Source: Gammaproteobacteria bacterium (GTDB taxonomy: Bacteria > Pseudomonadota > Gammaproteobacteria > Xanthomonadales > Wenzhouxiangellaceae). Taken from it: DNA of 56,600 nt. Shown in pieces: positions 7,132-55,094 of this stretch. The position numbers and the translations under genes are program-made. The notes beneath the pieces are model-generated. The model was given only the letters and a program-made list of their open reading frames with translations. It searched no databases and was not told the DNA's origin. The stretch spans positions 1 through 56,600 of the forward strand of contig JAHJQV010000067.1 in NCBI GenBank assembly GCA_018819105.1. The letters are read 5' to 3'. How positions within the stretch are numbered: the first letter of the stretch is position 1; every line of letters begins with the position of its first letter.

Positions 7132-7162
7132 AGCCGTCCCAGCATCTTGGCCAGTGTCATTC

Positions 7163-7189
7163 AGGCAGCCTGCGGGCTGCCTTTTTTTT
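7163..7189 (+). terminator. rho-independent terminator
   Basis: The arms AGGCAGCC and GGCTGCCT form an 8-bp stem around a 4-base loop, and the right arm runs into eight T residues. It closes the transcription unit of the secreted protein ending at 7131. Confidence 0.9.
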
Positions 7190-7196
7190 GGCTGTC

Positions 7197-7220
7197 AACC
7201 AAGCGCAGGCAGCGACGTTT
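7197..7220 (+). promoter_or_regulatory. candidate ECF-type promoter of the sigma factor operon
   Basis: AACC at 7197-7200 is followed after 15 bases by CGTTT at 7216-7220. This resembles the AAC / CGT elements recognised by many ECF sigma factors, which commonly autoregulate. It lies just after the upstream terminator and about 37 bases before the first ATG. The match is short, so this is tentative. Confidence 0.25.
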
Positions 7221-7256
7221 TACACTGTGTCGAATACCAAAACAGGTAGAGCAAAA

Positions 7257-7316
7257 ATGATGTCCGATGGGTCTGCCGCAGCCACACCACAGACTGCTGT
7301 CGCCGGCAATGCCTGA
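7257..7316 (+). CDS. possible 19-codon leader peptide overlapping the sigma factor start
   Basis: ATG at 7257 opens a frame of 19 codons (MMSDGSAAATPQTAVAGNA) that ends at TGA 7314-7316. It has a better ribosome site (AGGTAGAG a few bases upstream) than the sigma gene, and its stop overlaps the sigma ATG at 7309 by interleaving (ATGCCTGA). That arrangement would allow translational coupling. The peptide itself resembles nothing known, and chance cannot be excluded. Confidence 0.25.
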   Translation: MMSDGSAAATPQTAVAGNA

Positions 7317-7899
7317 GCCGGCGCTGCACTCATCCAGCGCGCCTGACGCAACAATCGCGCCAGCAGTGCCGGTTTCGGTCGATGCCTTCCTGCAGGATGT
7401 GGAGCGCCGGGCGCTGCGCATGGCCTGGCTGGCGACCAGTGATCTGGATGTCGCCATGGATCTGCTGCAGGATGCGATGATGGCTTTTTACCGCCATTAT
7501 GCAAAGCGTCCACCAGGACAGTGGGCACCGCTGTTTTACCGTACGCTGAACAACCGCATCATTGATCACTATCGCCGGCAGGCACGCTGGCGGCGCTGGC
7601 TGCAGCCATCCGGGCAGGTCGCTGACGCAGCCCAAGCCGAGGCAGATCCGGTCCCTGCTGCTGCCAGCAACACGCTGGCACCGGACATGCAGGCTCACCT
7701 GGATGATTTCGGGCAAAAGCTGCAGCAGGCACTGCAGGCATTGCCGCACCGGCAACGCCAGGTGTTTTTGTTGCGTGTCCACGAAGGACTGGATGTAGCT
7801 GCCACAGCCAGCAGTCTGGGCATTGGTGCCGGCAGCGTGAAAACCCATTTGCACAGGGCAACCCAGGCTCTGCGCGCAAAGCTGGAGGATTATCAATGA
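7309..7899 (+). CDS. ECF-like RNA polymerase sigma factor
   Basis: This 196-residue sigma-70 family protein has region 2 (about residues 22-90; DLDVAMDLLQDAMMAFYRHY, FYRTLNNRIIDHYRRQ) and region 4 (about 125-190; ALQALPHRQRQVFLLRVHEG, GIGAGSVKTHLHRATQALR with the helix-turn-helix), joined by a variable linker, with no region 1 or 3. The ATG at 7309 gives a compact N-terminus; an alternative in-frame ATG at 7267 would add 14 residues without a good ribosome site. It overlaps the next gene by 4 bases (ATGA). In the sigma / DUF3619-like / small protein / DUF3106 arrangement, this factor probably directs its own operon and a small envelope-related regulon, with the next gene as its partner. Confidence 0.88.
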   Translation: MPEPALHSSSAPDATIAPAVPVSVDAFLQDVERRALRMAWLATSDLDVAMDLLQDAMMAFYRHYAKRPPGQWAPLFYRTLNNRIIDHYRRQARWRRWLQPSGQVADAAQAEADPVPAAASNTLAPDMQAHLDDFGQKLQQALQALPHRQRQVFLLRVHEGLDVAATASSLGIGAGSVKTHLHRATQALRAKLEDYQ

Positions 7900-8345
7900 A
7901 CCACGACGATGACAAAGTACTGCAGTCGGCATTGCGTGCAGTGCTGCAGCAGGCCGATGATGATCTGCCCGAGCTGATCCGCCACAGATTGACCGCAGCC
8001 AGGCAGCAGGCCCGCCGCGATGCGCGTCTGCACGAGGCACGCCGCAGTCGGCGTTTGCAGCTGTTGGGCTTTGCCGGTGCGGCAACGGCCGTGGCGCTGG
8101 TGGCCTTGCTGTGGTTGCCGCTGACCCCCCGCCCGGATGACGGAATGCCGCTGTCGGCGTTGTCCGATGCGCCCATCGTGGCCGACATGCCACTGTTGCT
8201 CGACCGTGATTTTGCCCTGTTGGCCGACGCCGATGTGGCGCTGGAAGACGATGATGCGCTGGCTTTTTATGTCTGGGTGGCCGCAGCCGAAGCGCAGCCG
8301 GATGCGGCGACCAATGGCGACAACCCAGCGGATGTCGGCACATGA
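7896..8345 (+). CDS. DUF3619-like membrane protein, probable anti-sigma factor
   Basis: This 149-residue protein has a charged cytoplasmic helix-rich N-terminus (DDDKVLQSALRAVLQQADDD, LPELIRHRLTAARQQARRDA), then one membrane span at about residues 53-72 (GFAGAATAVALVALLWLPL), then an acidic periplasmic tail with LLLDRDFALLADADVALEDD and FYVWVA. The pattern and its place directly after an ECF sigma gene fit DUF3619-type proteins, which are thought to act as anti-sigma factors. It overlaps its neighbours by 4 bases on each side (ATGA both times), indicating translational coupling and fixed stoichiometry. There is no HxxxCxxC zinc motif, so it is not a ZAS-type anti-sigma factor. The role is inferred from context. 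Confidence 0.75.
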   Translation: MNHDDDKVLQSALRAVLQQADDDLPELIRHRLTAARQQARRDARLHEARRSRRLQLLGFAGAATAVALVALLWLPLTPRPDDGMPLSALSDAPIVADMPLLLDRDFALLADADVALEDDDALAFYVWVAAAEAQPDAATNGDNPADVGT

Positions 8346-8743
8346 GCGTTGCCAGCGCCAGCGGCCAATCAACCGGCAAAGTTCTGGACAACCCTGTGCG
8401 CCAGTGCACTGTGATGCAGACCTTGCCAAAGCAGCACGTCATACAAGGCTGCTGTCTGGCAGCGCTGTGGCTGACCAGCTTGAGCCATGCCACGGAGGCT
8501 GTGCCGGATCCGGCACTGCTGCTGTTCATTGCCGGGTTTTCCGCGCAGGGGCAATTTATCGACCCGCTGGCAATGGATCAGGCAATGACGGCCATGGATG
8601 GGAACTCTACCACTGACAGACCGATTCAGCCGGCGGTCACGGACGCAGTGGTCGATAGTCCATCGGCACTGGATCCGCCAGCCGGCACTGATCTGGACGC
8701 AGCAGAGCACATTGATGAGGAGCAGAACCATGAACAGCACTGA
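8342..8743 (+). CDS. small exported conserved hypothetical protein of the sigma/DUF3106 operon
   Basis: This 133-residue protein has a hydrophobic segment about 35-50 (GCCLAALWLTSLSHA) that may be a late signal peptide. A short conserved-looking core follows (PDPALLLFIAGFSAQGQFID), then a disordered acidic and proline-rich tail. The core recalls the LLEFLG...WVDP pattern of small proteins encoded between DUF3619 and DUF3106 genes in other proteobacteria. The start overlaps the previous gene by 4 bases (ATGA) and the end overlaps the DUF3106 start by 14 bases, so it belongs to the operon. No biochemical function can be assigned. Confidence 0.65.
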   Translation: MSVASASGQSTGKVLDNPVRQCTVMQTLPKQHVIQGCCLAALWLTSLSHATEAVPDPALLLFIAGFSAQGQFIDPLAMDQAMTAMDGNSTTDRPIQPAVTDAVVDSPSALDPPAGTDLDAAEHIDEEQNHEQH

Positions 8744-9323
8744 ATACGCAGCACGAGCACTCAACTGGCCTCGGCATGGCTGCCGTCTGCTGCTGCTGCT
8801 GCTGCTGACAGCAGCCAGCGACTGGCTTGCGGCCCAGAGTTGGGATGAACTGACTCCGGCCGAGCAGAACATGCTGCTGCCCTGGGCGGAGCAATGGCAG
8901 GACATGGCTGATGACGAACGAGCGCAGATGCTGCAGGGCCTGCGCCAATGGCAGCAGATGACACCGGATCAGCGCTTGCTGGCGCGGCAGCGATTTACCC
9001 AGTGGCAGAGCCTGACACCGGCGCAGCGGGAGCGCCTGCGCCAGCGCTTTCAGCGTTTCCGTGCCATGACCCCGGCACAGCAGGCGCGGGTGCGCGCCGG
9101 CATGCAGCGGCTGCGCGCATTGTCACCCGAGCAGCGCCAGCGCCTGCGTCTGCGCTGGCAGCAGATGTCGCCAGACCAGCGGCGCGCGTTTCGCGATGGT
9201 GCCCGACTGGGTGTGCACAGCGAACGTTTGGGCTGGATGCTACAGCTGGAAGATGGTGAGCGTGAGGCGCTGTGGGCTCTGGTTGCAGACTTGAGTCCGG
9301 TGCAGCGACAGTTGTTGCGGTAG
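8730..9323 (+). CDS. exported DUF3106 protein, apparently truncated by an amber codon
   Basis: This 197-residue protein has a signal peptide (RLLLLLLLTAASDWLAAQ). Its body is a chain of short helical repeats with the recurring pattern (L/M)(T/S)PxQRxxLRxRxxxx, for example SLTPAQRERLRQRF and ALSPEQRQRLRLRW, which is typical of DUF3106. Such proteins are periplasmic and of unknown function, and are reminiscent of CpxP/Spy-like helical repeats. ATG at 8730 is chosen because GAGGAG lies 8 bases upstream; the longer open frame to 8598 overlaps the preceding gene. The frame ends at TAG 9321-9323, but the same frame continues for 35 more codons with the same helical repeat style (see next entry), so the natural protein may have been longer. 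Confidence 0.8.
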   Translation: MNSTEYAARALNWPRHGCRLLLLLLLTAASDWLAAQSWDELTPAEQNMLLPWAEQWQDMADDERAQMLQGLRQWQQMTPDQRLLARQRFTQWQSLTPAQRERLRQRFQRFRAMTPAQQARVRAGMQRLRALSPEQRQRLRLRWQQMSPDQRRAFRDGARLGVHSERLGWMLQLEDGEREALWALVADLSPVQRQLLR

Positions 9324-9428
9324 CGCATGCAACCATTGGACGACGCAGCGCGCCGGACACTGGCGCGGCGATTGCTGGCGGCCACCGCCGACGAGCGCGA
9401 ACAACTGCTTCAAGCACCTGCAGATTGA
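9324..9428 (+). pseudogene. in-frame 3' remainder of the DUF3106 gene beyond an amber codon
   Basis: Directly after TAG 9321-9323 the same frame reads RMQPLDDAARRTLARRLLAA then TADEREQLLQAPAD up to TGA at 9426-9428. This continues the Arg/Leu/Gln-rich helical repeat of the upstream gene. A CAG-to-TAG change would turn an expected QLLRQRMQPLD into QLLR-stop. The alternative is an independent 33-residue protein starting at ATG 9327, but no ribosome site precedes it. Confidence 0.5.
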
Positions 9429-9585
9429 TGCGGCCAGGCTGTTTTCCGGCTCGCCAGTCAGCACGATAGCCAGTTCGTTGGCAAGGTCGGTCAACCGGAA
9501 CGAGGCAGAGTCGTTGTAGTGGGTGATGGCTGGATCAGCTCATCAAGTTTAACGATTCAATCTGATTGACCCACAGGAGAACACC

Positions 9586-10080
9586 ATGAATGCAAAGAAC
9601 CCCATTGCTGCGCTGCTCGTACTGATCGCGCTGTGCCTGGCGCCGGCTGCACAGGCGCTGCTGACGCTGGAGAAAAGCGTGTCGCTGACCGATGAGTTCG
9701 GTGGCACCCTGCAGATCCAAAGCAGCGGCGCACTGGACATCCCCGGTGCCGACATCAATAGCATCGCCAGTTTCAGCGATTTTCATCCCGGGGCACATGA
9801 TCGCAGCGTCAACGGCCAGGTCGAGCGCCAGCGCAACCGGGCCAATGAGCAGCTGACCAGTGTCTACAGCGGCAGTCTGACTTTCAATGCGCTCGATGCC
9901 GATGGCAATGCCCGACAGAATGTGCTGGAGTTTGCCGATTTGACCATTGTGCGCAGCGCCACCGGCCCGCAGTTCAGCGGCGCGGTCATCCTTAATGGCG
10001 AGGTGATCGATGCCGGTGAGATGCCACAACAGGTGGCGGTGATTCTGCGTCGTGTACTGCGCTTTTTTTATCTGGCCTGA
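9586..10080 (+). CDS. small exported hypothetical protein
   Basis: This 164-residue protein has an obvious signal peptide (PIAALLVLIALCLAPAAQA) and an excellent ribosome site (ACAGGAG 6 bases before the ATG). The mature part is hydrophilic and beta-rich (TLEKSVSLTDEFGGTLQIQS, TSVYSGSLTFNALDADGNAR) and ends in VILRRVLRFFYLA. It lies 157 bases after the DUF3106 remnant in a spacer with no recognisable gene and may be a separate transcription unit. I do not recognise the family. The downstream hairpin at 10241-10268 probably ends its transcript. Confidence 0.65.
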   Translation: MNAKNPIAALLVLIALCLAPAAQALLTLEKSVSLTDEFGGTLQIQSSGALDIPGADINSIASFSDFHPGAHDRSVNGQVERQRNRANEQLTSVYSGSLTFNALDADGNARQNVLEFADLTIVRSATGPQFSGAVILNGEVIDAGEMPQQVAVILRRVLRFFYLA

Positions 10081-10240
10081 GCAGCCACTGCAGCTTTTGT
10101 GACAGACCTGAAGCCTGAGTGTTCATGTTCTCCACTGAGGCGACCGCCAGGTTTCCGTCAGCCAATGCCCGGCAAATCCGGGACAGGTTCAGGAACCGAC
10201 TCGCCCAGACAGGTTCATGAATGCCCCCGGCTATAACAAA

Positions 10241-10268
10241 AAAACGGCTCGCGTTTGCGAGCCGTTTT
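10241..10268. terminator. bidirectional rho-independent terminator
   Basis: AAAACGGCTCGC and GCGAGCCGTTTT pair perfectly over 12 bases around GTTT, with an A-run on one side and a T-run on the other. It sits between the converging genes ending at 10080 (+) and 10492 (-) and can serve both. Confidence 0.9.
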
Positions 10269-10302
10269 CAATTGTGTCTGGTGATTTTTCGCGTCCTGTT
10301 GT

Positions 10303-10470
10303 CTAGGAGCCTGTCGGATTTGACCGATCGTAGCGAAGGAAAGCCGGTTGGAGTCAGATTTTTCGATCTTTTGAGGCGAATAGTGAGCCTATGCAACGAT
10401 GAAGATCGGCGAATCTGGCCCAATCCGGATTTTCTGCAGTAGATCAGTGCTAAGTCCGACAGGCTCCTAG
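10303..10470 (+). repeat. fold-back MITE-like repeat, copy 1
   Basis: This 168-bp element is bounded by perfect 16-bp inverted ends, CTAGGAGCCTGTCGGA and TCCGACAGGCTCCTAG. The whole element is an imperfect palindrome: left-arm parts such as AAGCCGGTTGG and CGATCTT recur inverted in the right arm. Related copies lie at 43702-43865 and 55095-55255. It contains no transposase. It fills most of the 411-bp gap between two convergent genes; the rest of the gap (10081-10240) shows nothing. Confidence 0.88.
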
Positions 10471-10491
10471 GTGCGCGACACCGGAATGTCT

Positions 10492-11259
10492 TTATTCTGC
10501 CGGGGTGAAGCTCAGATCGTCTTCCCGCACGTACATGTAATCCCACTGATCGTCCACGGCATCGGCAAACATGCCACGCCATTCTTCCGCGGTTTCCTTG
10601 CCGTGCTGTGCTGCAACCGCTTCCCACGGGCCGGTCCAGTCCTTGTCCATGCTGGCAAAGTCGGCGTGGTTGGAGACGACAAAGTAATCCGCATCGTCTT
10701 CACCACCGCCCATGGCCTCATACCACTGCAAAGTTACGGTGTTGTCGGTTTTCTGCATGGCCTTGCTCACTTCGGTGATAACCTTGGTGAAGGTTCTGCT
10801 GTCGTCAACAGTAAAGTTGTAGACGCCAACCACTTTGGTGTTCTCAGGCCAGGCATCACTGATACCGGGCATTTCCTGTGCCAGCATGGTTTTTTCGCCT
10901 TCTTCATGCGGGGTCAGCTGGGTTTCAAACACTTCCCGGCAGGCGCGGCTGGCGGCATCCATCTGGCCGACTTGCTCCCAGTTGTCTGCCATGACTGAAA
11001 ACACAAACACGTTGCCTTCGCCCTGCATACGCTTCCAGGCATTCCACGACGCCTTGCCGCCATTTTCACCATAGCATTGGTTCCAGGCTTTGACCGCTGC
11101 ACGCCACTTCGACTCGTGGCCGTGCTTGACCTTGACTTCATAGATGGAAAGAATCGGCCCGGCTTCTTCCTGGGCGAGCAGGCTGCTGACGGGGGTGATG
11201 GCCAGGAACGCACAGAGCAGTGCGGCGGCCAGTGATTGCTTGAAGATTGATTGCTTCAT
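10492..11259 (-). CDS. exported hypothetical protein with ferredoxin-like (ABM-type) repeats
   Basis: This 255-residue protein has a signal peptide (SLAAALLCAFLAITPVSSLLAQ) and a good ribosome site (AGAGGTAG before the ATG). The mature protein seems to consist of two related alpha-beta halves, ILSIYEVKVKHGHESKWRAA ... NVFVFSVMADNWEQVGQ and KVVGVYNFTVDDSRTFTKVI ... ADYFVVSNHADFASMDK, resembling dimeric alpha-beta barrel (NIPSNAP/ABM-like) units. Such domains bind small molecules or act as simple monooxygenases, but no catalytic residue can be named here. It stands alone between a repeat element and an AT-rich spacer. Confidence 0.7.
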   Translation of the reverse strand: MKQSIFKQSLAAALLCAFLAITPVSSLLAQEEAGPILSIYEVKVKHGHESKWRAAVKAWNQCYGENGGKASWNAWKRMQGEGNVFVFSVMADNWEQVGQMDAASRACREVFETQLTPHEEGEKTMLAQEMPGISDAWPENTKVVGVYNFTVDDSRTFTKVITEVSKAMQKTDNTVTLQWYEAMGGGEDDADYFVVSNHADFASMDKDWTGPWEAVAAQHGKETAEEWRGMFADAVDDQWDYMYVREDDLSFTPAE

Positions 11260-43982: not shown

Positions 43983-45554
43983 ATGCCTGAATTGAATTTT
44001 GACAACGCCTTTGTGCGCGAACTGCCTGCCGATCCCGAACGCAAGCCCAACCCACGCCATGTGTTTGGCAGTTGTTACTCCCGGGTCATGCCACAGCCGG
44101 TGCCGGCACCACAGCTGATCGCCTGGTCTGCGGAGATGGCTGCAGAACTGGGGCTGGAGGCGCAGGATCTGCAGTCACCGGCATGGGTGGAAACGCTGGC
44201 TGGCAATCGGCTGTTGCCCGGAATGCAGCCCTATGCCGCCTGCTACGGCGGGCATCAGTTTGGCAGCTGGGCAGGACAACTTGGCGATGGCCGCGCATTG
44301 TCGCTGGGCGAAATCGTCAATGCCCAGGGACGCCGCTGGGAACTGCAACTGAAAGGGGCGGGGCTGACCCCGTATTCACGCACTGCCGATGGCCGTGCCG
44401 TGCTGCGCTCCTCGCTGCGCGAGTTTCTTTGCAGTGAGGCCATGCACCATCTGGGTATTCCGACGACACGGGCCTTGAGTCTGGTGTTGACCGGTGAGCC
44501 GATCGTGCGCGACATGTTTTATGACGGTCATCCGGAAGCGGAGCCTGGCGCCATCACCTGTCGCGTGGCACCGTCGTTCATCCGCTTCGGCAATTTCGAG
44601 ATTTTCGCCGCGCGCAGCGAACACGACATACTGCGTCAGTTGGTGGATTTCACCTTGCGGCGGGATTTTCCGGCAATGCTGGGACCCGACGATGAGCTGA
44701 ATGACGAGTTGCTGCTGGCCTGGTTTGACGAGATCGCCAGGCGCACCGCTCTGATGGTCGCGCACTGGATGCGCGTGGGCTTTGTCCATGGCGTGATGAA
44801 CACCGACAACATGTCCATCCTCGGCCTGACCATCGACTATGGCCCGTATGGCTGGCTGGAGGACTTTGATCCGGAGTGGACGCCCAACACCACGGATGCC
44901 GCCACCCGCCGCTATTGCTACGGCCAGCAGCCGCGCATTGCACAATGGAACCTGATGTGTCTGGCGAAGGCATTGTCCGCATTGATGCAACAGCCTGAGT
45001 CCCTGCAGCAGGGCCTGCAGACCTATGCCGATGCTTACGCCGAACACGCCTTGCGCATGACCACCGACAAGCTGGGTCTGGCGACCTGGCAGGATGGCGA
45101 TGAAAAGCTGATCGAGACGCTGTTTCCACTGCTGCAGGCAGCCGAGCTGGACATGACGCTGTTCTGGCGCCTGCTCGCCGATCAGGACAGCGAACAGGCT
45201 GACGCCAGTGCGCTGCAGTCAGCCAGCTACAATGAACAGGCCTTTGCCGCGCAGCATCAGGCACTGCAGCAATGGTTGCAGGATTACCTGCGGCGGCGTC
45301 ATCAGGATCGTCGTCAGCTGGCAGAGATCAGGTCACAGATGCACGCCGCCAGCCCGAAGTACGTGTTGCGCAATTATCTGGCACAGCAGGCGATTGATCA
45401 GGCCGCAGCCGGTGACTACAGTGAAATCGACCGGCTGCTGCAGATCATGCGCAAACCCTACGACGAGCAGCCCGAGCATGCCGAATACGCGGCCAAGCGG
45501 CCGGAATGGGCGCGTGACAAGGCGGGCTGCTCCATGTTGTCGTGCAGCTCCTGA
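43983..45554 (+). CDS. selO: protein adenylyltransferase SelO
   Basis: This 523-residue pseudokinase-fold enzyme (YdiU/SelO/UPF0061) transfers AMP to Ser, Thr and Tyr of proteins and is linked to redox stress. Signatures are PYAACYGGHQFGSWAGQLGD, WELQLKGAGLTPYSRTADGR, AVLRSSLREFLCSEAMHHLG, TTRALSL, PSFIRFGNFE, GFVHGVMNTDNMSILGLTID and the C-terminal CSMLSCSS. In vertebrates a selenocysteine occupies the third-last position; here that codon is TGC, so plain cysteine. It sits between repeat copy 2 and the convergent SOUL-family gene. Confidence 0.95.
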   Translation: MPELNFDNAFVRELPADPERKPNPRHVFGSCYSRVMPQPVPAPQLIAWSAEMAAELGLEAQDLQSPAWVETLAGNRLLPGMQPYAACYGGHQFGSWAGQLGDGRALSLGEIVNAQGRRWELQLKGAGLTPYSRTADGRAVLRSSLREFLCSEAMHHLGIPTTRALSLVLTGEPIVRDMFYDGHPEAEPGAITCRVAPSFIRFGNFEIFAARSEHDILRQLVDFTLRRDFPAMLGPDDELNDELLLAWFDEIARRTALMVAHWMRVGFVHGVMNTDNMSILGLTIDYGPYGWLEDFDPEWTPNTTDAATRRYCYGQQPRIAQWNLMCLAKALSALMQQPESLQQGLQTYADAYAEHALRMTTDKLGLATWQDGDEKLIETLFPLLQAAELDMTLFWRLLADQDSEQADASALQSASYNEQAFAAQHQALQQWLQDYLRRRHQDRRQLAEIRSQMHAASPKYVLRNYLAQQAIDQAAAGDYSEIDRLLQIMRKPYDEQPEHAEYAAKRPEWARDKAGCSMLSCSS

Positions 45555-45603: not shown

Positions 45604-46389
45604 TCACTGCGCAGTCCACACCACCGGCAGTTGCATTTCCCACCATTTGTCCGCCGTGGCAGTATCGGGACCGTTGTAGCCGAGCAGACGAAAACCGCCG
45701 TCGCGCTGCCAGCGACCCGGCGCAGCATCGGGTTGCGCCCGTAGCCAGTCCAGCAACTGCCGCTGCATCGCCTGCAGTTGCCGCTGGCTGTCGCGACCCT
45801 GAAAGCCGATCGCAAGCACCGTCATGGGTGGCTGGTCCGCAACCACCACGCCACGCTCGCTGACACCGGTTTGTCCCTGCGTGGTGCTGCGATAGAGAAA
45901 TGCCATGCTGCCCGCCACATTGTCATCGCCGGCCATCTTGCCGCTCATGATCACCGGTGCGGTCATGGCGATGTCGGCATCCTTGATGTGGCGAAACAGC
46001 GTGAAAAAGGCTGAGCCGCTGCGTTGACTGCGGTCGAACAGAGCCTGACGCAGGCTTGGATACTGTTTCAGCTCGATCGCGCCCGGTGGCGTCGGTGCAG
46101 CAAAACCTTCCGGCAGTGCTGCGGAAATGCGCGCACTGCCCACCGTATAGAATGGTGCCGATTGCTGCTGGTTGGTGATGCCCGGCTGCTGCAGCACACG
46201 CGTTTCCAGATTGCCGCCGACACGCAGTACCTGCCAGTTGCCGGGTGTGGCTGCCGTCGTCGTTGCGGCAGCAACCGGTACCGGCGTGCCGTCGCTGTCA
46301 GCAGCGGGCTGAATTTCCGGTTGCACGCAGCCACCCAGCAGCAGCAACAGAACCGGCATGGTTATGGATAGGTTTTTCATGATCATCAA
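45604..46389 (-). CDS. SOUL-family (heme-binding-like) lipoprotein
   Basis: This 261-residue protein has a lipoprotein signal with lipobox LLGGC, an Ala/Thr-rich linker, and a SOUL domain (about 75-255) with IELKQYPSLRQALFDRS, SAFFTLFRHIKDADIAMTAP and FRLLGYNGPDT. SOUL/HBP proteins form a beta-barrel that binds heme or related ligands; bacterial members are poorly studied. Starts at 46389, 46386 and 46380 are all possible; none has a strong ribosome site. The 5' end overlaps the upstream region of the divergent deacylase gene only if that gene used an upstream start. Confidence 0.82.
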   Translation of the reverse strand: MMIMKNLSITMPVLLLLLGGCVQPEIQPAADSDGTPVPVAAATTTAATPGNWQVLRVGGNLETRVLQQPGITNQQQSAPFYTVGSARISAALPEGFAAPTPPGAIELKQYPSLRQALFDRSQRSGSAFFTLFRHIKDADIAMTAPVIMSGKMAGDDNVAGSMAFLYRSTTQGQTGVSERGVVVADQPPMTVLAIGFQGRDSQRQLQAMQRQLLDWLRAQPDAAPGRWQRDGGFRLLGYNGPDTATADKWWEMQLPVVWTAQ

Positions 46390-46498: not shown

Positions 46499-48238
46499 GT
46501 GAACCATCACCTGCTTGTCACTTTATCATTGCGCAGCGCGCTGTCGGGCATGCTGCTCATGCTGCTCGCCGCCTGCAATGCCGGTCCTCAGAGTCCTGTG
46601 CGCAGCGCCACGCCACCGCAGGCTGCCGCGCACCACGATGTGTTGATCAGCAATGGCCTGGTGTTCGATGGCGGCGGCAGCGAACCGGTGCGCGCCGATG
46701 TGGCCATAGCCGGCGATCGCATTGTCGCCATCGGCAACAACCTGGGCACCGCCGACACCGTCATCGATGCCAGCGGCAAGGCCGTGGCGCCGGGCTTCAT
46801 CAACATGCTCAGTTGGGCCACCGAGTCGCTGATCGTCGATGGCCGCTCGCTCAGCGACATCCGTCAGGGGGTGACGCTGGAAGTGTTCGGCGAAGGCTGG
46901 TCGATGGGGCCGCTGAACGCGCAGATGAAGCAGGAGGCACTGCGTCAGCAGGCCGATATCCGCTATCCGATCGACTGGACCACCCTGGGTGAATACCTGC
47001 AGATGCTGGAGGATCAGGGCATCTCGCCGAACGTGGCCTCGTTTGTCGGTGCCACCACCGTGCGCATGCATGTGCTGGGTGAAGACGATGTCGATCCCGA
47101 TGCGCAACAACTGGCGCAGATGCAGGAGCTGGTGCGTGCCGCCATGCGCGAGGGTGCGCTGGGTGTCGGTTCATCGCTGATCTACGCGCCGGCGTTCTAT
47201 GCCGAAACCGATGAGCTGGTGGCCTTGATGCAGGCCGCCAGTGAATATGGCGGGCGCTACATTTCACACCTGCGCAGCGAAGGCAACCGCCTGCTGGAAG
47301 CGGTCGACGAGCTGATCGAGATTGCCGAGCGATCGGCGGCTGGCGCGGAGATTTATCATCTGAAGGCGGCGGGGCGCGAGAACTGGGCAAAAATGGCGGA
47401 GGTGTTCCAGCGGGTTGAGCAGGCGCGCGCACGTGGACTGGACATCAGCGCCAACATGTACAACTACACTGCCGGTGCCACCGGGCTGGATGCAGCCATG
47501 CCGCCGTGGGTGCAGGCCGGCGGCGAAGCGGCCTGGATCCAGCGCCTGCAGGACCCCGCCATCCGGGCGCGCCTGCGCGAGGAAATCGCCACCCCCAGCG
47601 ATGCCTGGGAGAACCTCTACCTTGCCGCTGGCGATGCCAGCAAACTGCTGTTGATCGACTTCAAGAATCCCCGCCTGAAGCCGCTCACCGGCATGACCCT
47701 GGCAGAGGTGGCGGCGCAGCGCGGCACGTCGGTGATCGACACCATGATGGATCTGGTGATCGAGGATGAAAGCCGCGTGGGCACGGTGTATTTTCTCATG
47801 TCAGAAGACAACATCCGCGCCAAGATCGCCAGGCCCTGGGTCAGTTTTGGTTCCGATGCCGAATCCTCGGCCCCCGAGGGCGTGTTCCTGCAAAGCTCTA
47901 CCCATCCGCGCGCCTACGGCAACGTGGCCAGACTACTGGGGCAGTATGTGCGCGATGAGCAGGTGATATCACTGGCCGAGGCCATCCGGCGTTTGACCTC
48001 ACTGCCGGCGCAGAACCTGAAGCTGCGCCAGCGCGGCAGCCTCAAACCGGGTTACTTTGCCGACGTGGTGGTGTTTGCTGCCGACAGCATCCAGGATCAT
48101 GCCAGCTACGCGCAGCCCATGCAGCTGGCCACCGGCGTCAGCGAGGTGCTGGTGAATGGCGAACTGGTGCTGCAGCAGGGCGAACACACCGGTGCCATGC
48201 CCGGCCGAGTGGTGCGTGGTCCGGGTTATGTGGAATAA
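46499..48238 (+). CDS. atypical N-acyl-D-amino-acid deacylase-like amidohydrolase lipoprotein
   Basis: This 579-residue protein starts at GTG 46499, placed 6 bases after GAGGAG; the frame is open further upstream, but those codons precede the signal. A lipobox LLAAC (Cys26) anchors it. The fold is that of the D-aminoacylase/dan-type amidohydrolases: VLISNGLVFDGGG, GKAVAPGFINML, SHLRSEGNRL (His257), IYHLKAAGR (His287), FGSDAESSAPE (Asp453) and RLTSLPAQNLKLRQRGSLKP. The usual HxH after APGF is replaced by NMLSW (102-106), and the metal-bridging cysteine motif GNCG by GEGWSM (131-136), so the metal site must differ. It heads the operon with the aminotransferase-fold, SNF transporter and oxygenase genes. 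Substrate unknown. Confidence 0.85.
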   Translation: MNHHLLVTLSLRSALSGMLLMLLAACNAGPQSPVRSATPPQAAAHHDVLISNGLVFDGGGSEPVRADVAIAGDRIVAIGNNLGTADTVIDASGKAVAPGFINMLSWATESLIVDGRSLSDIRQGVTLEVFGEGWSMGPLNAQMKQEALRQQADIRYPIDWTTLGEYLQMLEDQGISPNVASFVGATTVRMHVLGEDDVDPDAQQLAQMQELVRAAMREGALGVGSSLIYAPAFYAETDELVALMQAASEYGGRYISHLRSEGNRLLEAVDELIEIAERSAAGAEIYHLKAAGRENWAKMAEVFQRVEQARARGLDISANMYNYTAGATGLDAAMPPWVQAGGEAAWIQRLQDPAIRARLREEIATPSDAWENLYLAAGDASKLLLIDFKNPRLKPLTGMTLAEVAAQRGTSVIDTMMDLVIEDESRVGTVYFLMSEDNIRAKIARPWVSFGSDAESSAPEGVFLQSSTHPRAYGNVARLLGQYVRDEQVISLAEAIRRLTSLPAQNLKLRQRGSLKPGYFADVVVFAADSIQDHASYAQPMQLATGVSEVLVNGELVLQQGEHTGAMPGRVVRGPGYVE

Positions 48239-48271
48239 ACCTGGCAGCATCAGCATCCATGGATTGAAGAC

Positions 48272-49549
48272 ATGAATGAGGTTTCCCACTCACGACGGCG
48301 TTTTCTGCAGATCGCCGGTGCTTCGGCGCTCAGCGCCGGCCTGCTGGCGAGCATCAATGATGTGCGTGCGCTGGTGGATGAACAGGCCAGTGCGGCGGCG
48401 CGTCTGGATTTTGATCAGCTCGCTTCAGCCTACTCGCTGGCAGACAATCTGAGCTATCTGAATCATGCCTCGATCGGCACCATTCCGCGTCTGGTGCAAT
48501 CTGCGCATGGCGATTATTTGCGCCTGTGTGAAAGCAATCCATGGCTGTATGTCTGGGGCGGGGGCTGGGACGCAGGAGTGCAGGCGGTGCGTGCAGCTTG
48601 TGCTCAGGCATTGGGTTGTGATGCAAGCCATGTGGCGCTGTCGCACAACACCACTGAGACCTTCTCGATGCTGGCCCAGGGTCTACCCATGCAGGCCGGT
48701 GATGAAGTGCTGTTTTCCAATCTTAATCATGATGGTGCCAGCATCTGTTGGGAGCAGCAGTCCTCACGGCGTGGGTACACGGTGAGAAAATTCGAGATCC
48801 CGCTGGCTGATATTCCGGGTCTCAGTGAAGATGATGTGGTGGCACTGCATGCTGATGCAATCGCCGACAACACCAGGGTGCTGGTCTTTCCGCATGTCGA
48901 TAACATGGTTGGCCTGCGCCATCCGCTACACAGGCTGGTACAGACAGCACGAGCAAAAGGCGTGGAATTTGTCTTCGTCGATGGTGCACAGACCCTGGGT
49001 ATGTTGCCGCTGCAGGTGGCCAGCAGCGGGGTAGATGTTTATGCCTGCAGTGCGCACAAATGGCTGCAAGCGCCCAAGGGGCTGGGCGTAAGCTATATTC
49101 ACCCGCGCCTGATTGAGATCGTGCAGCCGATGTGGATGACCTGGGGGCAGCAGCGCTGGCAGGGCAGTGTGCGAATTTTTGAAGACTATGGCACGCGCAA
49201 TTTTCCGGAATTGATGGCGATGGCTGATGCCTTGCAGTATCAGTATCAGTTGGGTGCTGGGCGCAAGCTGGATCGCTATCTGCATTTGCGCAAACAGGCC
49301 ATGGCCATGGTCGATGCTGACTCCGCGCTGGCGTGGCGCTCGCCGCGCAGCGAACAACTTGGCGCATCATTGTTTGCCATCGGTCTGCGAAACGGCCAGG
49401 CTGAAGCGACAGCACAGCGTCTGTATCAACAGCATGGCGTGGTGGTGCGGCCATTTGCCACGCCCGGTCTGAACAGTCTGCGGGTGTCACCGAACGTGTT
49501 CAACACCACGCGTGAGTTGCGGCGATTGATGCATTTGGCGGTCAATTAG
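48272..49549 (+). CDS. Tat-exported class V aminotransferase fold protein (isopenicillin N epimerase-like)
   Basis: This 425-residue PLP protein begins with a twin-arginine signal (SRRRFLQIAGASALSAGLLA), so it is exported folded with its cofactor. The class V fold is shown by LSYLNHASIGTIPRLV, ALSHNTTETFSMLAQGLPMQ, the PLP Asp in FVFVDGAQTLG (Asp237), and the Schiff-base lysine in CSAHKWLQAPKGLG (Lys263). The nearest named relatives are isopenicillin N epimerase (CefD) and cysteine desulfurase-like enzymes, which racemise, desulfurate or cleave amino acids. It follows the deacylase by 33 bases and precedes the transporter by 6. Racemase or lyase activity on an amino acid or peptide side chain is an inference. 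Confidence 0.85.
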   Translation: MNEVSHSRRRFLQIAGASALSAGLLASINDVRALVDEQASAAARLDFDQLASAYSLADNLSYLNHASIGTIPRLVQSAHGDYLRLCESNPWLYVWGGGWDAGVQAVRAACAQALGCDASHVALSHNTTETFSMLAQGLPMQAGDEVLFSNLNHDGASICWEQQSSRRGYTVRKFEIPLADIPGLSEDDVVALHADAIADNTRVLVFPHVDNMVGLRHPLHRLVQTARAKGVEFVFVDGAQTLGMLPLQVASSGVDVYACSAHKWLQAPKGLGVSYIHPRLIEIVQPMWMTWGQQRWQGSVRIFEDYGTRNFPELMAMADALQYQYQLGAGRKLDRYLHLRKQAMAMVDADSALAWRSPRSEQLGASLFAIGLRNGQAEATAQRLYQQHGVVVRPFATPGLNSLRVSPNVFNTTRELRRLMHLAVN

Positions 49550-49555
49550 CAGGCC

Positions 49556-50893
49556 ATGGAGATGCCGGGGATGGACCGCACGCCGCCACATGGTGTCAGG
49601 CCGCAGTTTGCCAGCCGCATGGGCATGCTGCTGACCGTCATCGGCGTGGCGGTCGGCCTGGGCAATGTCTGGCGCTTTCCCTACATGATGGGCAGTTATG
49701 GCGGCAGCGCCTTTCTGCTGGTGTATCTGCTGTTCACGCTGTTGTTGGCGGTGCCGGTATTGAGCGCCGAATGGGCGCTGGGGCGCAGCCTGGGGCAAAG
49801 CCTCCCGACGGTTTATGTGGCCAGTTTCGGGCGGCGCTGGGGTGGCTTGGCAGCGCTGCTGCTGTTGATCACGGTACTGGTGGCCGATTCCTATTACCTG
49901 CTGGTCATCGCGCAGATCATCATCACCGCAGGTTGGGCCGTGCTGCCGGGGTTCAGCGGTGACAATCTGCCGACGTTCCAGTACTGGCTGGCACAGGGCT
50001 GGCTGCAATACAGCGTGGCCATGCTGCTGTTGCTGTTGAGTTTGTGGATCATTGGCCGTGGACTCAATCGCGGCATCGAGGCAATCAGCCGCATCATCAT
50101 GCCCGCATTTGCGCTGATCATGATTTATCTTTTGACGGTGGCGCTGGCGTTGCCCGGTGCCGTGTCGGCAATGCAGGGATTTCTTAAACCTGATTTTGCC
50201 GCCATGAACACGGGCGATGTTTTTGCCGCACTGGGACAGGCATTTTTTTCGCTCGGCCTGGGCGGCACCTTTCATGTGGTCTACGGCAGTTATGTGCGCC
50301 AGGCGCAGAACCTTCCACTGACGGCCATGGTGACCGCCGGTGGTGATGTGCTGGCAGCCTTGCTGGCGGCGCTGTTCATCGTGCCGGTGGCGCTGGTGTT
50401 CAGCCTGGATCTGGCACAGGGGCCGGGTCTGATCTTCGACACCTTGCCGCGCCTGTTCATGCGCCTGCCCGATGGCGGTATTGTGGGCGCGATCTTTCTG
50501 CTGGCGCTGGCGGCGGTGGCACTGCTGTCCAACATTGCGGCACTACAAGTGGCCGCTGCAGCGATGCGCGAACAGTGGCCGCAACTGGCCGGGCGGCAGC
50601 GCTCGCGCATGCTGCTGGTGCTGCTGCTGATCGAAGCTGCATTGATGTTGCCATCGGCGCTGGATAACAGCCTGATTGGCACACTGGATCTGCTGTTTGG
50701 CTCTGGCATGCAATTGCTGGGTGGGCTGTTTGCGGTGCTGGCGCTGTTGTGGGGGCTGCAGCGGCGTCATGCTGTCATCGCACTGTTTGGATCGCACACA
50801 CGCCGCTGGCATGGGCTGTATCTGTGCTGGCTGCGCTGGGTGGTGCCGCTGCTGGTGCTAGGCATATTGGCAGGCTGGCTGTTGCAGCAATAG
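49556..50893 (+). CDS. SNF-family sodium-dependent transporter
   Basis: This 445-residue inner-membrane protein has about 11-12 membrane spans. It begins with the neurotransmitter:sodium symporter signature RMGMLLTVIGVAVGLGNVWR followed by FPYMMGSYGGSAFLLVY, which holds the sodium and substrate sites in span 1. Bacterial members such as LeuT and MhsT carry amino acids. It starts only 6 bases after the aminotransferase-fold gene (alternative Met at 49562 and 49571). Within this operon it most likely takes up the amino acid released or altered by the exported enzymes. Confidence 0.9.
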   Translation: MEMPGMDRTPPHGVRPQFASRMGMLLTVIGVAVGLGNVWRFPYMMGSYGGSAFLLVYLLFTLLLAVPVLSAEWALGRSLGQSLPTVYVASFGRRWGGLAALLLLITVLVADSYYLLVIAQIIITAGWAVLPGFSGDNLPTFQYWLAQGWLQYSVAMLLLLLSLWIIGRGLNRGIEAISRIIMPAFALIMIYLLTVALALPGAVSAMQGFLKPDFAAMNTGDVFAALGQAFFSLGLGGTFHVVYGSYVRQAQNLPLTAMVTAGGDVLAALLAALFIVPVALVFSLDLAQGPGLIFDTLPRLFMRLPDGGIVGAIFLLALAAVALLSNIAALQVAAAAMREQWPQLAGRQRSRMLLVLLLIEAALMLPSALDNSLIGTLDLLFGSGMQLLGGLFAVLALLWGLQRRHAVIALFGSHTRRWHGLYLCWLRWVVPLLVLGILAGWLLQQ

Positions 50894-50941
50894 ACTCAAA
50901 CAGCGCACAATGGTGGTGGTTAATGATGACAGGATCAGGTC

Positions 50942-52012
50942 ATGCACAAGGCAGATGACAGCGGCATCAAGGCGCTGAATCAGGAATACCGCCGTTACGA
51001 GCAGGTGGACAAACAGCAGGTCTATGGCCTGTCTGAAAATGACAGCGTGGACAGCTACGACGAACATGCCGGTATCCAGGTGTGTGACATGCAGCCGTAC
51101 TTTTCTGGCGGGGAGCCAGGCAAGCGCGAGTTCGCCGCTGCGCTGGGCCAGGCCATGGCGGACATCGGCTTTGCCGTCATCATCAACCATGGTGTGTCAG
51201 AAAAGCTCTACCGTGACACCGAAGAGCTGGTACTGGCATTTTTTCAATCCACGCCGGAACCGGCGCGCCAGCCCTATCTGGCGCAGCGGCATGGTTCGGT
51301 CAATCAGGGGTACTTCCCGGTGCGCGAAACCTCACAGATTCATCCGGATCTGGTGGAGGGCTGGGTGTTTTGCCGACGTGCCTTCAATATGCTCAATGAT
51401 CCCGGATTTGATGCACGCAGATTCTGGCCGCAGCCGCAGTTCGAGCCGCAATTCCGTCGCCTGATCTGCGCCCACGAGGCGCTGATACTGCCGCTGATGC
51501 AATCCATGCTGCGCTATCTGGGCTGTGATCCGCAGCTGTTCGATGAGCGCTTACAGGCGACCAATTTCGGTTTTCGGCTGAATTACTATCCGCCGCTGGA
51601 GGCTAGCGACCACAGTGGCGGTGGTCGCATGCTGGGGCATGAGGATGTGGATCTGTTTACGCTGCTGCCAGCGCCCAGCGTGGAAGGTCTGCAGGTGCTC
51701 AACCGCGCCAACGGCAAATGGATCAGGTTGCAGGCACCGCCTGGCTCACTGATCATCAATACCGGTGATTACATGCAGCGCATCAGCAACGATCGCTTCC
51801 CGTCCACCACCCACCGCGTGGCCCGACCACGCGACACCGCCGCCAATGGCCTGCCCAGGGTCAGTTTTCCCATGGCCATCTACCTGTGGGAAGACGAGAC
51901 ACTGGAAGTGCTGCCCGGACTGGGCGAGCCCAAATACCCGCCCATCCGTGCAGAAACCTTCCACACCCGCATCACCAGCAAATACTATGGCGACGATTAT
52001 GCTGCTGGCTGA
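50942..52012 (+). CDS. isopenicillin N synthase-like Fe(II)/2-oxoglutarate oxygenase
   Basis: This 356-residue cytoplasmic enzyme shows the N-terminal DIOX_N-type domain (EFAAALGQAMADIGFAVIIN, HGVSEKLYRDTEELVLAFFQ) and the double-stranded beta-helix core. The iron triad is His233-x-Asp235 (GHEDVD) and His291 (TTHRVARP), and Arg306-x-Ser308 (RVSFP) is the family 2-oxoglutarate or substrate carboxylate site. FGFRLNYYPP and PPGSLIINTGDYMQRISNDR are typical of the isopenicillin N synthase / flavone synthase superfamily. It could hydroxylate or cyclise an amino acid or small peptide. A ribosome site (AGGATCAGG) precedes the start. It ends the operon and converges on the Asp-box protein. Confidence 0.88.
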   Translation: MHKADDSGIKALNQEYRRYEQVDKQQVYGLSENDSVDSYDEHAGIQVCDMQPYFSGGEPGKREFAAALGQAMADIGFAVIINHGVSEKLYRDTEELVLAFFQSTPEPARQPYLAQRHGSVNQGYFPVRETSQIHPDLVEGWVFCRRAFNMLNDPGFDARRFWPQPQFEPQFRRLICAHEALILPLMQSMLRYLGCDPQLFDERLQATNFGFRLNYYPPLEASDHSGGGRMLGHEDVDLFTLLPAPSVEGLQVLNRANGKWIRLQAPPGSLIINTGDYMQRISNDRFPSTTHRVARPRDTAANGLPRVSFPMAIYLWEDETLEVLPGLGEPKYPPIRAETFHTRITSKYYGDDYAAG

Positions 52013-52029: not shown

Positions 52030-54879
52030 TTATTCCACTTCCAGGCCGTCGCTGAAGAACACTTCGCGCAGCCGTTTCGCGCCGCCCTGGAACACGATGA
52101 TGCCGTCGTCCGGGGTGGCGTCACCGGCGGCACCGTCGGTCAGCGGGAAGGTCCAGACATTGCCGACACGGCTGGCGGCGATGGTCAGATCCCAGCCGGT
52201 GGTGTTTTCGTCCGGGAACTGCAGGCCGTAGTTGCGCAGCTGGTAGCTGGCGTCGCTGAAATCGGTGTCGTGATAGATCAGTTCCAGCTCGGCCTGCTCG
52301 CAATCGGGGATGCGCAGATGCACGCCGTTGAAGGGCATCTCGTAACTGGCCTCGATCGGTATCGAGCTGAGCAGATCCAGTCCAAAGCTGTTTTCCAGCC
52401 GGTCACAGGTGCCGCTGATCGGGGTCAGTGACAGGGTCATGAAGCTTTGCGTGCCGCGATTGGCTGGATCGTTGATTTCCGGCGAGGCCACCTGTGGCTG
52501 GGTGCTGTCACCGCTGCCATCCAGATTGCCATCGCCACTATTGGGGGCAGCGTTTTCGGTCGGGTCGGTGGCACCGTCGATGTCGCCATCGGGAATCACC
52601 TCGAAGCTCTGCACGCCCTGTGTGGTGCCGGCATGAATGAGCAGGTTGCTGCCGGTGTTGTCCAGCGCCAGTTTGGTGGCCACGGCGGTGTTGGGAAAGC
52701 CGGTGCTCAGTGACGACCAGTTGGCACCGCCATCGCGGCTGACGAAAACGCCACCGTCGCCATTGCCCAGCGGATCCGCCACCGCGGCGTAGACATCACC
52801 GGTAAGCGGATCCACCGCCAGATCGCGCACATCGCGATTGGTCAGGCCGGTGCCGGCAAAGCTCCAGTTCAGCCCACCATCGGTGGTCTTGTACACCGTG
52901 CCCAGCACGCTGTTGTCGAGTTCGTTGGTCGAGGCGTACAACGTCTGTCCGCTCGGGTCGCTTTCATCGAATTCCAGCGACAGCACGCTCTCTGCCGTGC
53001 TGCCGGCGATGCCGTCCAGCCGTGGCAGACCGTTGCTGGCATGCACCCAGGTGGCACCGCCGTCGACCGACTTGAACACGCCGTTCTCGACCACGGCCGG
53101 TGCGCCCGCCAACTCATCAAAGCCGGATAAAAAGGTCGCGGCATACAATGTGTTGCCGCTGACATCGGTGGTGTCCAGCTCGATCTGCACCACCGAAACC
53201 CAGATCGGAAATCCGGCCACGCCGGGTTCGGTGCCATCCAGGCCATTGTCCATGGGCACCCAGGTGGCACCGGCGTCGGTGCTTTTGTACAGATTGGCGG
53301 CATCCTTGACGATGCTGCCGCCATCCAGCCGGTAGCGGCCACTGCCGCCGGCATACAGTGTCTGCGAGGCACCCGCGCAGGGCGGGCCACCCGCACAGCT
53401 GAACGGGTCTACGGTGATGGCACGCACCGTACCGAACAGGGAAAACGAAAATGGTGCCGGGGTCAGTGGGATGCCGTTGTCGATGGTGGACCAGGTGGCA
53501 CCCCCGTCGATGCTTTTGTAAATGGCACCGTCGCCGGGCACCACGGAACCGGTACCGTCATCGTGCGGACGGCTGCTGCCGCCGGCGTAGACGGTGTTGA
53601 TGCTGTTGGGATCCACCGTGATGTCGCGGAAATGGTCGGCACCCAGGGCACTGTTGGCCTGGCTCCAGGTCAGGCCGTTGTTGTTGCTGATGAAGTGCAC
53701 GAAGGTGGGGTCGAAGGCATCGCCGATGGCCGCGTGCACACGATTGCCCAGCGTGCTGGTTACCGCGCGGATGTTGGCGGCGCTGAAGCCGTCGACGCCA
53801 GGCACAAAGTTGTCCAGAGGCGGCAGCGCGTTGCGCCGGTAAACGCCATTGCTGATCGAGCCGGCCAGCTGGATGGTGGGGTTGAACGGATCGTAGGCCA
53901 CCACCGTGGAACTGGTTGGCAGCAGGGCAGCGTTGCCGACAAAGCCGCCCTGCACCTCGGTCCAGTTGGCACCGTCATCGGTGGTGTAGGCCAGCCCCAG
54001 TCTGCCGGCCAGATACAGCTGGTCAGGATCGCCCGGATGCACGTCCAGGTCGGTGCCGCCACCCACCGCAAAAGTGCCGAACGGTGTCCAGGTGTTGCCA
54101 CCATCGGTGCTGCGATGCACGCCCTGAAAGTTCACCGCCCACAGCTTGCCGGCAGCGTTCGCGTGTTCGATGTCCTGCAGGGCATCATCCTGCCACGGGC
54201 AGTCGACGGGACAGGCTATGGCAGTCCAGCTGGCCCCGGCATCGGTGCTGCGAAACAGGCCGTGATCACCCCCGAAACCGATGTTGTCTTCGGTGGCCAA
54301 CAGCAGGCCGTCGCCCAGCACCGGATCGGCCAGCAGCCGACGCGGTTGAAACGCCACCGCCGAGGGCACCGCAGTAGTGGCCAGCCAGCTGATGCCGGCA
54401 TCGTCACTGCGCAGCACGGCACTGTTGGACAGCCCGACATAAATGCGACCGGGCACCACCGGAGAAGCATCCATGCTGACGATCAGCACATCGGCGGGCA
54501 GCAGCGCCGGCGGCGGCGTGCGATCCTGCCAGGTCAACGCGGCATCGTTGCTGAAGTACAGCTTGCGGTTGCCGGCCACATACAGCCTGTTGGGCGCGGT
54601 CTGGCTGTGTTCCAGCGCAAACACCCGCCGATTCAGCCCGGCATTCGCCTCCGTCCAGGTCACCCCGCCATTGACGGTCTTGTAAACGCCACCATTGCCG
54701 ATGGCATAAAACACATTGGCGCTGTCGGGCGAAGCCACCAGGTCGAAGACATTGCCGGCCTCCGGCCCGGACGAAGTCCACAAACCCGGCCCGGCCTGTG
54801 CCTGTTGCAGAACCAGCAGCACCCCGAGCAGGGCAGAGAATCTGGCCATTCGGCGCAGAGATAGACGTAAACTGGACAT
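52030..54879 (-). CDS. secreted Asp-box (BNR) beta-propeller protein with choice-of-anchor-like C-terminus
   Basis: This 949-residue protein starts at 54879 after GAGGTGG; the longer frame to 54996 lacks a ribosome site. A signal peptide (ARFSALLGVLLVLQQAQA) is followed by about twelve Asp-box motifs of the S/T-x-D-x-G-x-T/S-W type, for example KTVNGGVTW, RSTDGGNTW, KSIDGGATW, KSTDAGATW and VSRDGGANW. Such motifs mark sialidase, sortilin/Vps10 and photosynthesis-assembly propellers. The last 140 residues (DGDIDGATDPTENAAPNSGD, calcium-rich, then LTDGAAGDATPDDGIIVFQG) resemble a domain catalogued as choice-of-anchor U. It ends in EVFFSDGLEVE. No catalytic glycosidase residues can be claimed, so it is more likely a binding or surface protein. 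Confidence 0.85.
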   Translation of the reverse strand: MSSLRLSLRRMARFSALLGVLLVLQQAQAGPGLWTSSGPEAGNVFDLVASPDSANVFYAIGNGGVYKTVNGGVTWTEANAGLNRRVFALEHSQTAPNRLYVAGNRKLYFSNDAALTWQDRTPPPALLPADVLIVSMDASPVVPGRIYVGLSNSAVLRSDDAGISWLATTAVPSAVAFQPRRLLADPVLGDGLLLATEDNIGFGGDHGLFRSTDAGASWTAIACPVDCPWQDDALQDIEHANAAGKLWAVNFQGVHRSTDGGNTWTPFGTFAVGGGTDLDVHPGDPDQLYLAGRLGLAYTTDDGANWTEVQGGFVGNAALLPTSSTVVAYDPFNPTIQLAGSISNGVYRRNALPPLDNFVPGVDGFSAANIRAVTSTLGNRVHAAIGDAFDPTFVHFISNNNGLTWSQANSALGADHFRDITVDPNSINTVYAGGSSRPHDDGTGSVVPGDGAIYKSIDGGATWSTIDNGIPLTPAPFSFSLFGTVRAITVDPFSCAGGPPCAGASQTLYAGGSGRYRLDGGSIVKDAANLYKSTDAGATWVPMDNGLDGTEPGVAGFPIWVSVVQIELDTTDVSGNTLYAATFLSGFDELAGAPAVVENGVFKSVDGGATWVHASNGLPRLDGIAGSTAESVLSLEFDESDPSGQTLYASTNELDNSVLGTVYKTTDGGLNWSFAGTGLTNRDVRDLAVDPLTGDVYAAVADPLGNGDGGVFVSRDGGANWSSLSTGFPNTAVATKLALDNTGSNLLIHAGTTQGVQSFEVIPDGDIDGATDPTENAAPNSGDGNLDGSGDSTQPQVASPEINDPANRGTQSFMTLSLTPISGTCDRLENSFGLDLLSSIPIEASYEMPFNGVHLRIPDCEQAELELIYHDTDFSDASYQLRNYGLQFPDENTTGWDLTIAASRVGNVWTFPLTDGAAGDATPDDGIIVFQGGAKRLREVFFSDGLEVE

Positions 54880-55094
54880 GCTAACCACCTCAATTGGAGT
54901 TTTGTCGCTTTGATTGTTGTTATAACGCGATCGGTTTGTTTTCCGCGCCAGACGGCGCAGGTTTTTGAATTGTAACATTATGTTTGTTACAGCCATGCAG
55001 GTGAGCTGATGAATCCCGGTGAACTGCTGCCTGCATGAGGCACTTTGACAGAGTAGATTACTCAGAATGGATGATGGGTAAAATGGGTATTCAC

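Follow-up and report, generated by a model that had tools for sequence, protein, structure and literature searches.

A symporter–oxygenase gene pair conserved across phyla lies behind two predicted exported enzymes in a Wenzhouxiangellaceae bacterium

The stretch of DNA analyzed here (the window; 56,600 nucleotides, positions 1 to 56,600 of contig JAHJQV010000067.1, assembly GCA_018819105.1) comes from a gammaproteobacterium of the family Wenzhouxiangellaceae. It carries four same-strand genes assigned to a D-aminoacylase-like amidohydrolase (gene 1), a class V pyridoxal phosphate (PLP) enzyme (gene 2), a sodium:neurotransmitter (SNF) symporter (gene 3), and an Fe(II)/2-oxoglutarate oxygenase (gene 4), which are listed with their neighbors in Table 1. 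An earlier annotation made by a model from the letters of the DNA (the sequence-only reading) had described these genes as a closely spaced operon, and their coordinates and gaps of 33, 6, and 48 bases were confirmed. The GTG start codon of gene 1, with AGGAG six bases ahead of it, fits a start at position 46499 better than the longer open frame from position 46358. Scans for promoters and terminators gave no excess over shuffled sequences (1 vs 1.9 and 3 vs 4.0, respectively); from spacing and conservation we infer that genes 1 to 4 are one transcription unit.

Table 1. Genes of the four-gene set and neighboring genes in the window
Feature	Position	Strand	Assignment
Gene 1	46499-48238	+	D-aminoacylase-like amidohydrolase, predicted lipoprotein, HxH-less subfamily; PF07969 Amidohydro_3 3.6e-18
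Gene 2	48272-49549	+	Class V PLP-fold enzyme, predicted Tat export; PF00266 Aminotran_5 1.7e-37
Gene 3	49556-50893	+	Sodium:neurotransmitter (SNF) symporter; PF00209 7.4e-37, 127.7 bits, cut-off 27
Gene 4	50942-52012	+	Fe(II)/2-oxoglutarate oxygenase; PF03171 2OG-FeII_Oxy 1e-15, PF14226 DIOX_N 8.2e-13
SelO gene	43983-45554		SelO protein adenylyltransferase
SOUL-family gene	45604-46389	-	Divergent SOUL heme-binding family lipoprotein
BNR/Sortilin-repeat gene	52030-54996	-	Large BNR/Sortilin-repeat protein

The neighborhood of the oxygenase was compared over 62 loci, made up of the window, 54 loci from one pattern scan, and seven from genome searches (genomes G004, G008, G045, G446, G456, G520, and G065). 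The scan needs exact peptide words and is therefore incomplete; its loci L104, L105, and L106 duplicate contigs of G003, G516, and G472, respectively, and each was counted once. At least 1300 bases upstream of the oxygenase are available in 59 of the 62 loci, and L133, L156, and L157 start inside the oxygenase gene or barely ahead of it. By their labels, the 54 scan loci span six phyla. Among sampled genomes, the family was found in 11 of 299 from the order at an E-value of 1e-80 and in 2 of 369 from the class.

An SNF gene was found directly upstream of the oxygenase and on the same strand in 20 of the 62 loci, at 12-195 bases from match to match, with the pair occurring in Pseudomonadota, Bacteroidota, and Gemmatimonadota. 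On an oxygenase tree of 58 rows, built from an alignment that left out L124, L156, L157, and L169, the SNF label changes six times, and at least four of these changes are forced by supported branches. As the number of SNF-like matches per genome ranged from 0 to 4 in 61 genomes, a chance adjacency of the two genes is very unlikely, although this estimate has no formal baseline. Genes 3 and 4 are a conserved pair across phyla, and the earlier observation of an amino-acid symporter family gene beside the oxygenase stands. Among the papers listed in searches of an open library on the family names, with those words only, none was on the SNF-oxygenase pair by title.

The oxygenase itself is strongly conserved. 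Gene 4 carries the complete HxD...H iron triad and the RxS motif (H233-x-D235, H291, and R306-x-S308) as well as NYYP at residues 214-217. In the 58 rows, H233 and D235 are conserved in 98%, H291 and R306 in 100%, and S308 in 98%. Proteins of the six phyla share 54-67% identity with the oxygenase of the window, and 68 columns are invariant in 47 rows (the window and 46 of the 51 complete scan rows). The family signature reads QGYFP..T..HPDLVEGWV.CRRAF, with FHT..T.K.YGD at the C-terminus, and NCBIfam gave no match for gene 4 at an E-value of 0.01. Gene 4 is a member of a tight, unnamed conserved family within the general 2-oxoglutarate oxygenase fold.

Comparisons with solved proteins placed gene 4 among several oxygenases. 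By sequence, gene 4 matched 3oox (2.6e-26), the P. aeruginosa protein 6jyv, which carries the title isopenicillin N synthase (1.3e-16), and the isopenicillin N synthase of fungi (IPNS; 3.3e-9). The predicted model of gene 4 (predicted local distance difference test, pLDDT, 89.2; predicted template modeling score, pTM, 0.90) was aligned by VIA-align first to thymine 7-hydroxylase 5c3r, with a Z-score of 32.9 over 294 residues at 2.5 A, while IPNS reached a Z-score of about 28. Foldseek ranked 3oox first with 2.7e-22, by a small margin over isopenicillin N synthase with 4.8e-21. Fold and iron/2-oxoglutarate motifs are shared with 5c3r, 3oox, and the ethylene-forming enzyme 9ovh, from which gene 4 differs in an identity of only 25-30% and in its own family signatures. 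The earlier label of an isopenicillin N synthase-like oxygenase is too specific, as several other oxygenases are nearer by sequence and thymine 7-hydroxylase is nearer by fold.

Gene 3 belongs, as first proposed, to the LeuT-type symporters by its sequence, with PF00209 well above its cut-off and MhsT (4us3) as the nearest solved relative at an E-value of 1.4e-47. It resembles MhsT and LeuT, both SNF amino-acid symporters, in family and in length (445 residues vs 455 in MhsT). It differs from MhsT in its partnership with an oxygenase gene and in transmembrane helix 6, where a glycine stands in place of the methionine of MhsT; glycine occupies this position in 24 of 25 SNF rows and alanine in that of L091. 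In this L091 locus (genome G051, 7142-10934), a CDGSH-cupin gene, an SNF gene with 43% identity to gene 3, and a class V PLP gene with 22% identity to gene 2 lie together, and no oxygenase match was found within its 19 kb stretch.

Gene 1 had been called a D-aminoacylase-like lipoprotein. Family and lipobox bear this out, while three metal-site residues of the D-aminoacylases are missing. The protein matches D-aminoacylase 1rjp at an E-value of 1.9e-62, and a lipobox (LAAC, Cys26) was recognized by eye, which is kept in the copy of G001, the sole other genome of the genus; by the same inspection, 8 of 10 further orthologues examined carry a lipobox. Aligned to D-aminoacylase, gene 1 has L104 and W106 at the HxH positions, and all 11 orthologues of 57-81% identity read NMLSW or NVLSW there. 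The HxH motif is also lost in the 43% homologue L056 and kept in the 32-33% homologues L057 and L058. A gap replaces the ligand cysteine beside E132, within a GEG motif found in 11 of 11 of these orthologues, and the ligand histidines H257 and H287 and the catalytic aspartate D453 (GSD) are likewise common to all 11.

The ligand roles follow PMC12017989 and general background on these enzymes. In that paper, PpOngB, a close relative of the D-aminoacylases, holds its metal by Cys/His/His, and changing either histidine of HxH abolished its activity; a Glu/His/His site is described there for the enzyme family of E. coli NagA. In NagA itself the site is mononuclear, and QxN stands where HxH would be (PMC6016474). 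Gene 1 shares the family, two metal-binding histidines, and the catalytic aspartate with the D-aminoacylase of A. faecalis (1rjp/1m7j) and with the GlcNAc1A deacetylase PpOngB (9kb1), both subtype V amidohydrolases. It differs from both in being a lipoprotein by prediction, in lacking HxH and the cysteine ligand, with a glutamate beside the lost cysteine, and in an extra segment after the aspartate. These residues suggest a one-metal amidohydrolase with a Glu/His/His site. The comparison with NagA, which is of a different amidohydrolase branch, would apply only to the manner of working of a one-metal amidohydrolase. The gene 1 orthologues, among them those at L095-L103, are HxH-less D-aminoacylase-like proteins, mostly with a lipobox, and perhaps form an enzyme family of their own.

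The loss of the D-aminoacylase metal site in gene 1 also bears on the earlier suggestion that the set scavenges or breaks down beta-lactam or peptidoglycan debris. This idea draws on family names and on the ability of D-amino-acid deacylases to act on N-acyl D-amino acids. Together with the sequence and fold comparisons of gene 4, in which IPNS is not the nearest solved oxygenase, the lost site leaves beta-lactam-like scavenging without support; we consider it improbable and rejected it.

For gene 2, the class V PLP fold and the Tat (twin-arginine translocation) signal of the earlier description were recovered, together with an active-site lysine, while the name isopenicillin N epimerase-like is too specific; no CefD sequence or model was among the matches listed. 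The twin-arginine signal SRRRFLQ was identified by eye and is also present in the G001 and G008 orthologues, and the lysine lies in SAHKW, aligned with the solved relatives. The nearest of these are the cysteine/cystine C-S lyase 1elq (9.5e-23) and PvdN 5i90 (7.3e-18), with which gene 2 shares the fold and the lysine; Tat export is shared with PvdN alone. PvdN is a PLP enzyme that is exported folded by Tat and acts in the periplasm (PMC6206403).

This likeness raises a pyoverdine-like maturation of an exported peptide, in which a periplasmic deacylase and a PvdN-like Tat PLP enzyme would tailor a side chain that genes 3 and 4 recycle. Among curated families, PvdN comes closest to gene 2, and the acylase and PvdN are both periplasmic in pyoverdine synthesis (PMC6206403). 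Gene 2 scored 114.1 bits against the PvdN model of NCBIfam, far below the cut-off of 650 bits. The peptide synthetase condensation domain PF00668 was not found in the genome of the window (0 of 1; 98.7% complete), while 4 of 14 control genomes were positive, and PvdQ is an Ntn hydrolase (PMC6206403) rather than an amidohydrolase. Given the PvdN score and the genome search, pyoverdine-like tailoring was rejected as highly improbable.

Conservation separates the two halves of the set. All four genes occur in the same order in G001, with 74-81% protein identity, and among 60 relatives examined the complete set was found in no other. Genes 1 and 2 accompany the SNF-oxygenase pair in the window and G001 only, out of the 62 loci. 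Gene 1 orthologues (57-81% identity) were found in 11 of 60 other genomes and adjoin the pair in G001 alone; outside the genus, they occur in 10 of 59 relatives (57-69% identity), 7 of which lack an oxygenase orthologue. The remaining three, G004, G008, and G045, have the oxygenase with gene 1 on a different contig. Gene 2 orthologues are rarer, with 3 of the 299 order genomes (window, G001, and G008) and 1 of the 369 class genomes, the window itself. In G008, the only carrier outside the genus, gene 2 is on a different contig from the oxygenase; its neighbor on the same strand, 256 bases away, is a hydrolase gene with a TAP-like end and, by eye, an apparent signal peptide. Of the co-occurrence of the four families proposed by the sequence-only reading, the pair of genes 3 and 4 is conserved among relatives and the whole set is confined to the genus. 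The homologues of genes 1 and 2, half of the operon, are scattered, a pattern which that reading had itself named as counting against a common pathway.

The same distribution would be expected if two independent modules, genes 1-2 and genes 3-4, lay side by side with no common substrate, their order having arisen by accident in this genus and been retained through recent ancestry. The restriction of the set to two genomes of one genus, the separate occurrence of gene 1, and the rarity of gene 2 speak for such an arrangement. The single strand, the short gaps, and the order kept in G001 at its level of protein divergence speak against it, and on balance we regard it as rather unlikely.

Oxygenase loci without an SNF gene often adjoin genes of NhaC-like, APC permease, DUF969/DUF979, TauE-like, or SulP families; DUF969 and DUF979 presumably act in transport. 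A TauE-like gene precedes the oxygenase in eight alphaproteobacterial loci, and in six Woeseia-like or related loci the oxygenase is followed by an NhaC-like gene, with a gamma-glutamyltransferase nearby. Five sphingomonad loci carry a hydantoinase/oxoprolinase-family fusion, DUF969, DUF979, and DUF2891 ahead of the oxygenase. The best NCBIfam matches of the fusion are caprolactamase subunits, far below their cut-off, so that 5-oxoproline is only a lead. At L129, an aminotransferase and a PALP-family enzyme lie upstream of the oxygenase. A divergent glutamate-semialdehyde dehydrogenase (801 bits, cut-off 614) stands next to the oxygenase in seven metagenome-assembled genomes (five Latescibacterota and two Gemmatimonadetes). 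This neighbor suggests an arginine- or homoarginine-hydroxylase activity like that of the ethylene-forming enzyme; an alignment of gene 4 with that enzyme gave no clear match of its substrate residues.

Cupin genes of two families were the other recurring neighbors. One of the two lies within 6 kb of the oxygenase in 18 of the 62 loci, among them 10 of the 20 that have the SNF pair, and either was found in 10 of 12 oxygenase-carrying genomes examined. Family c5 occurs in G004, G008, G045, and G446 (4 of 11 genomes searched) and family c20 in G003, G456, G472, G516, G520, and G065 (6 of 12 genomes searched), with cupin and oxygenase on different contigs in G003, G004, G008, G045, and G446. Neither family was found in G000 and G001, both with the four-gene set, the latter genome being 88% complete; the complementarity between cupins and the four-gene set rests on this one genus, without a control. 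Searches of the PDB with both cupins returned no function, and NCBIfam gave them no name.

Taken together, we propose that an old import-and-oxidise pair (genes 3 and 4) gained two exported enzymes (genes 1 and 2) in this genus and that the set acts on an amino-acid-like compound, a reading to which we assign a probability of about 50%. Gene 1, anchored in the envelope, would hydrolyze an amide bond, of N-acyl or peptide-like type, in an amino-acid conjugate outside the cell, with one metal held by Glu/His/His and the aspartate as base. Gene 2 would fold with its PLP in the cytoplasm, leave through Tat, and alter the amino acid or a by-product by racemization, as a lyase, or by transamination. 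The free amino-acid-like product would be imported with sodium by gene 3 and hydroxylated in the cytoplasm by gene 4, using O2 and 2-oxoglutarate. The export signals of genes 1 and 2 and the conservation of the pair are read from sequence, and the reactions, their order, and a common transcription are what we infer from them. The most likely purpose is to use or detoxify an amino compound from outside the cell, antibiotic synthesis being the less likely one.

Amino-acid and glutamyl genes recur near the oxygenase (the fusion at five loci, gamma-glutamyltransferase at six, and glutamate-semialdehyde dehydrogenase at seven), which counts in favor of the proposed pathway, as do the SNF gene upstream of the oxygenase in 20 loci, the gene order kept in G001, and the G008 neighbor, apparently again an exported hydrolase beside a gene 2 enzyme. 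The same holds for membrane protein genes in general, since SNF or a member of the five other families named above is present within 6 kb of the oxygenase in 46 of the 62 loci. The earlier sequence of deacylation, PLP chemistry, import, and oxidation keeps its conserved pair and the exported enzymes in front of it and loses the conservation of the set as a whole.

Several points weigh against the proposal. Of the 62 oxygenase loci, 42, three of them cut by a contig end, have no adjacent SNF gene. The six membrane families behind the count of 46 loci were picked after the loci had been seen and without a baseline. As a 5-oxoprolinase, the oxoprolinase-family fusion is only a candidate. Since PpOngB needs its HxH motif, gene 1 without it could be inactive or act otherwise, and the structure predicted for gene 1 from two sequences had a pLDDT of 35.5 and was not used. 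Genes 1 and 2 are unlinked to the pair outside one genus and may have joined it incidentally. In G001, the copy of gene 4 (L124/L084, 9123-10206) reads as two overlapping frames and may be broken or misassembled.

Around the set, the SelO gene of the window has a counterpart upstream of the G001 set (L124, 2756-4300), and a SelO homologue with 37% identity lies directly upstream of the SNF-oxygenase pair at L165 (5918-7336). SelO was found near the oxygenase in 3 of the 62 loci, two of them from one genus. The SOUL-family lipoprotein gene, which separates SelO from gene 1 in the window, had no match in the G001 locus. The BNR/Sortilin-repeat gene is convergent with gene 4, their ends being 17 bases apart.

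More tentatively, the loci could reflect an undescribed import-and-oxidise pathway for one amino-acid-like compound in at least six phyla, in which the unnamed oxygenase works with each lineage's own transporter (SNF, NhaC-like, APC, DUF969/979, and others) and in many cases also with a member of either cupin family. In the genus of the window, the exported one-metal amidohydrolase and the Tat PLP enzyme would then replace the cupins and generate the substrate outside the cell. If the proposed pathway holds, an unnamed and strongly conserved oxygenase family would act on a compound taken up by many bacteria, and its gene neighbors would make the substrate of the oxygenase testable. In the gene 1 subfamily, the scaffold of the D-aminoacylases would have become that of a one-metal Glu/His/His enzyme.

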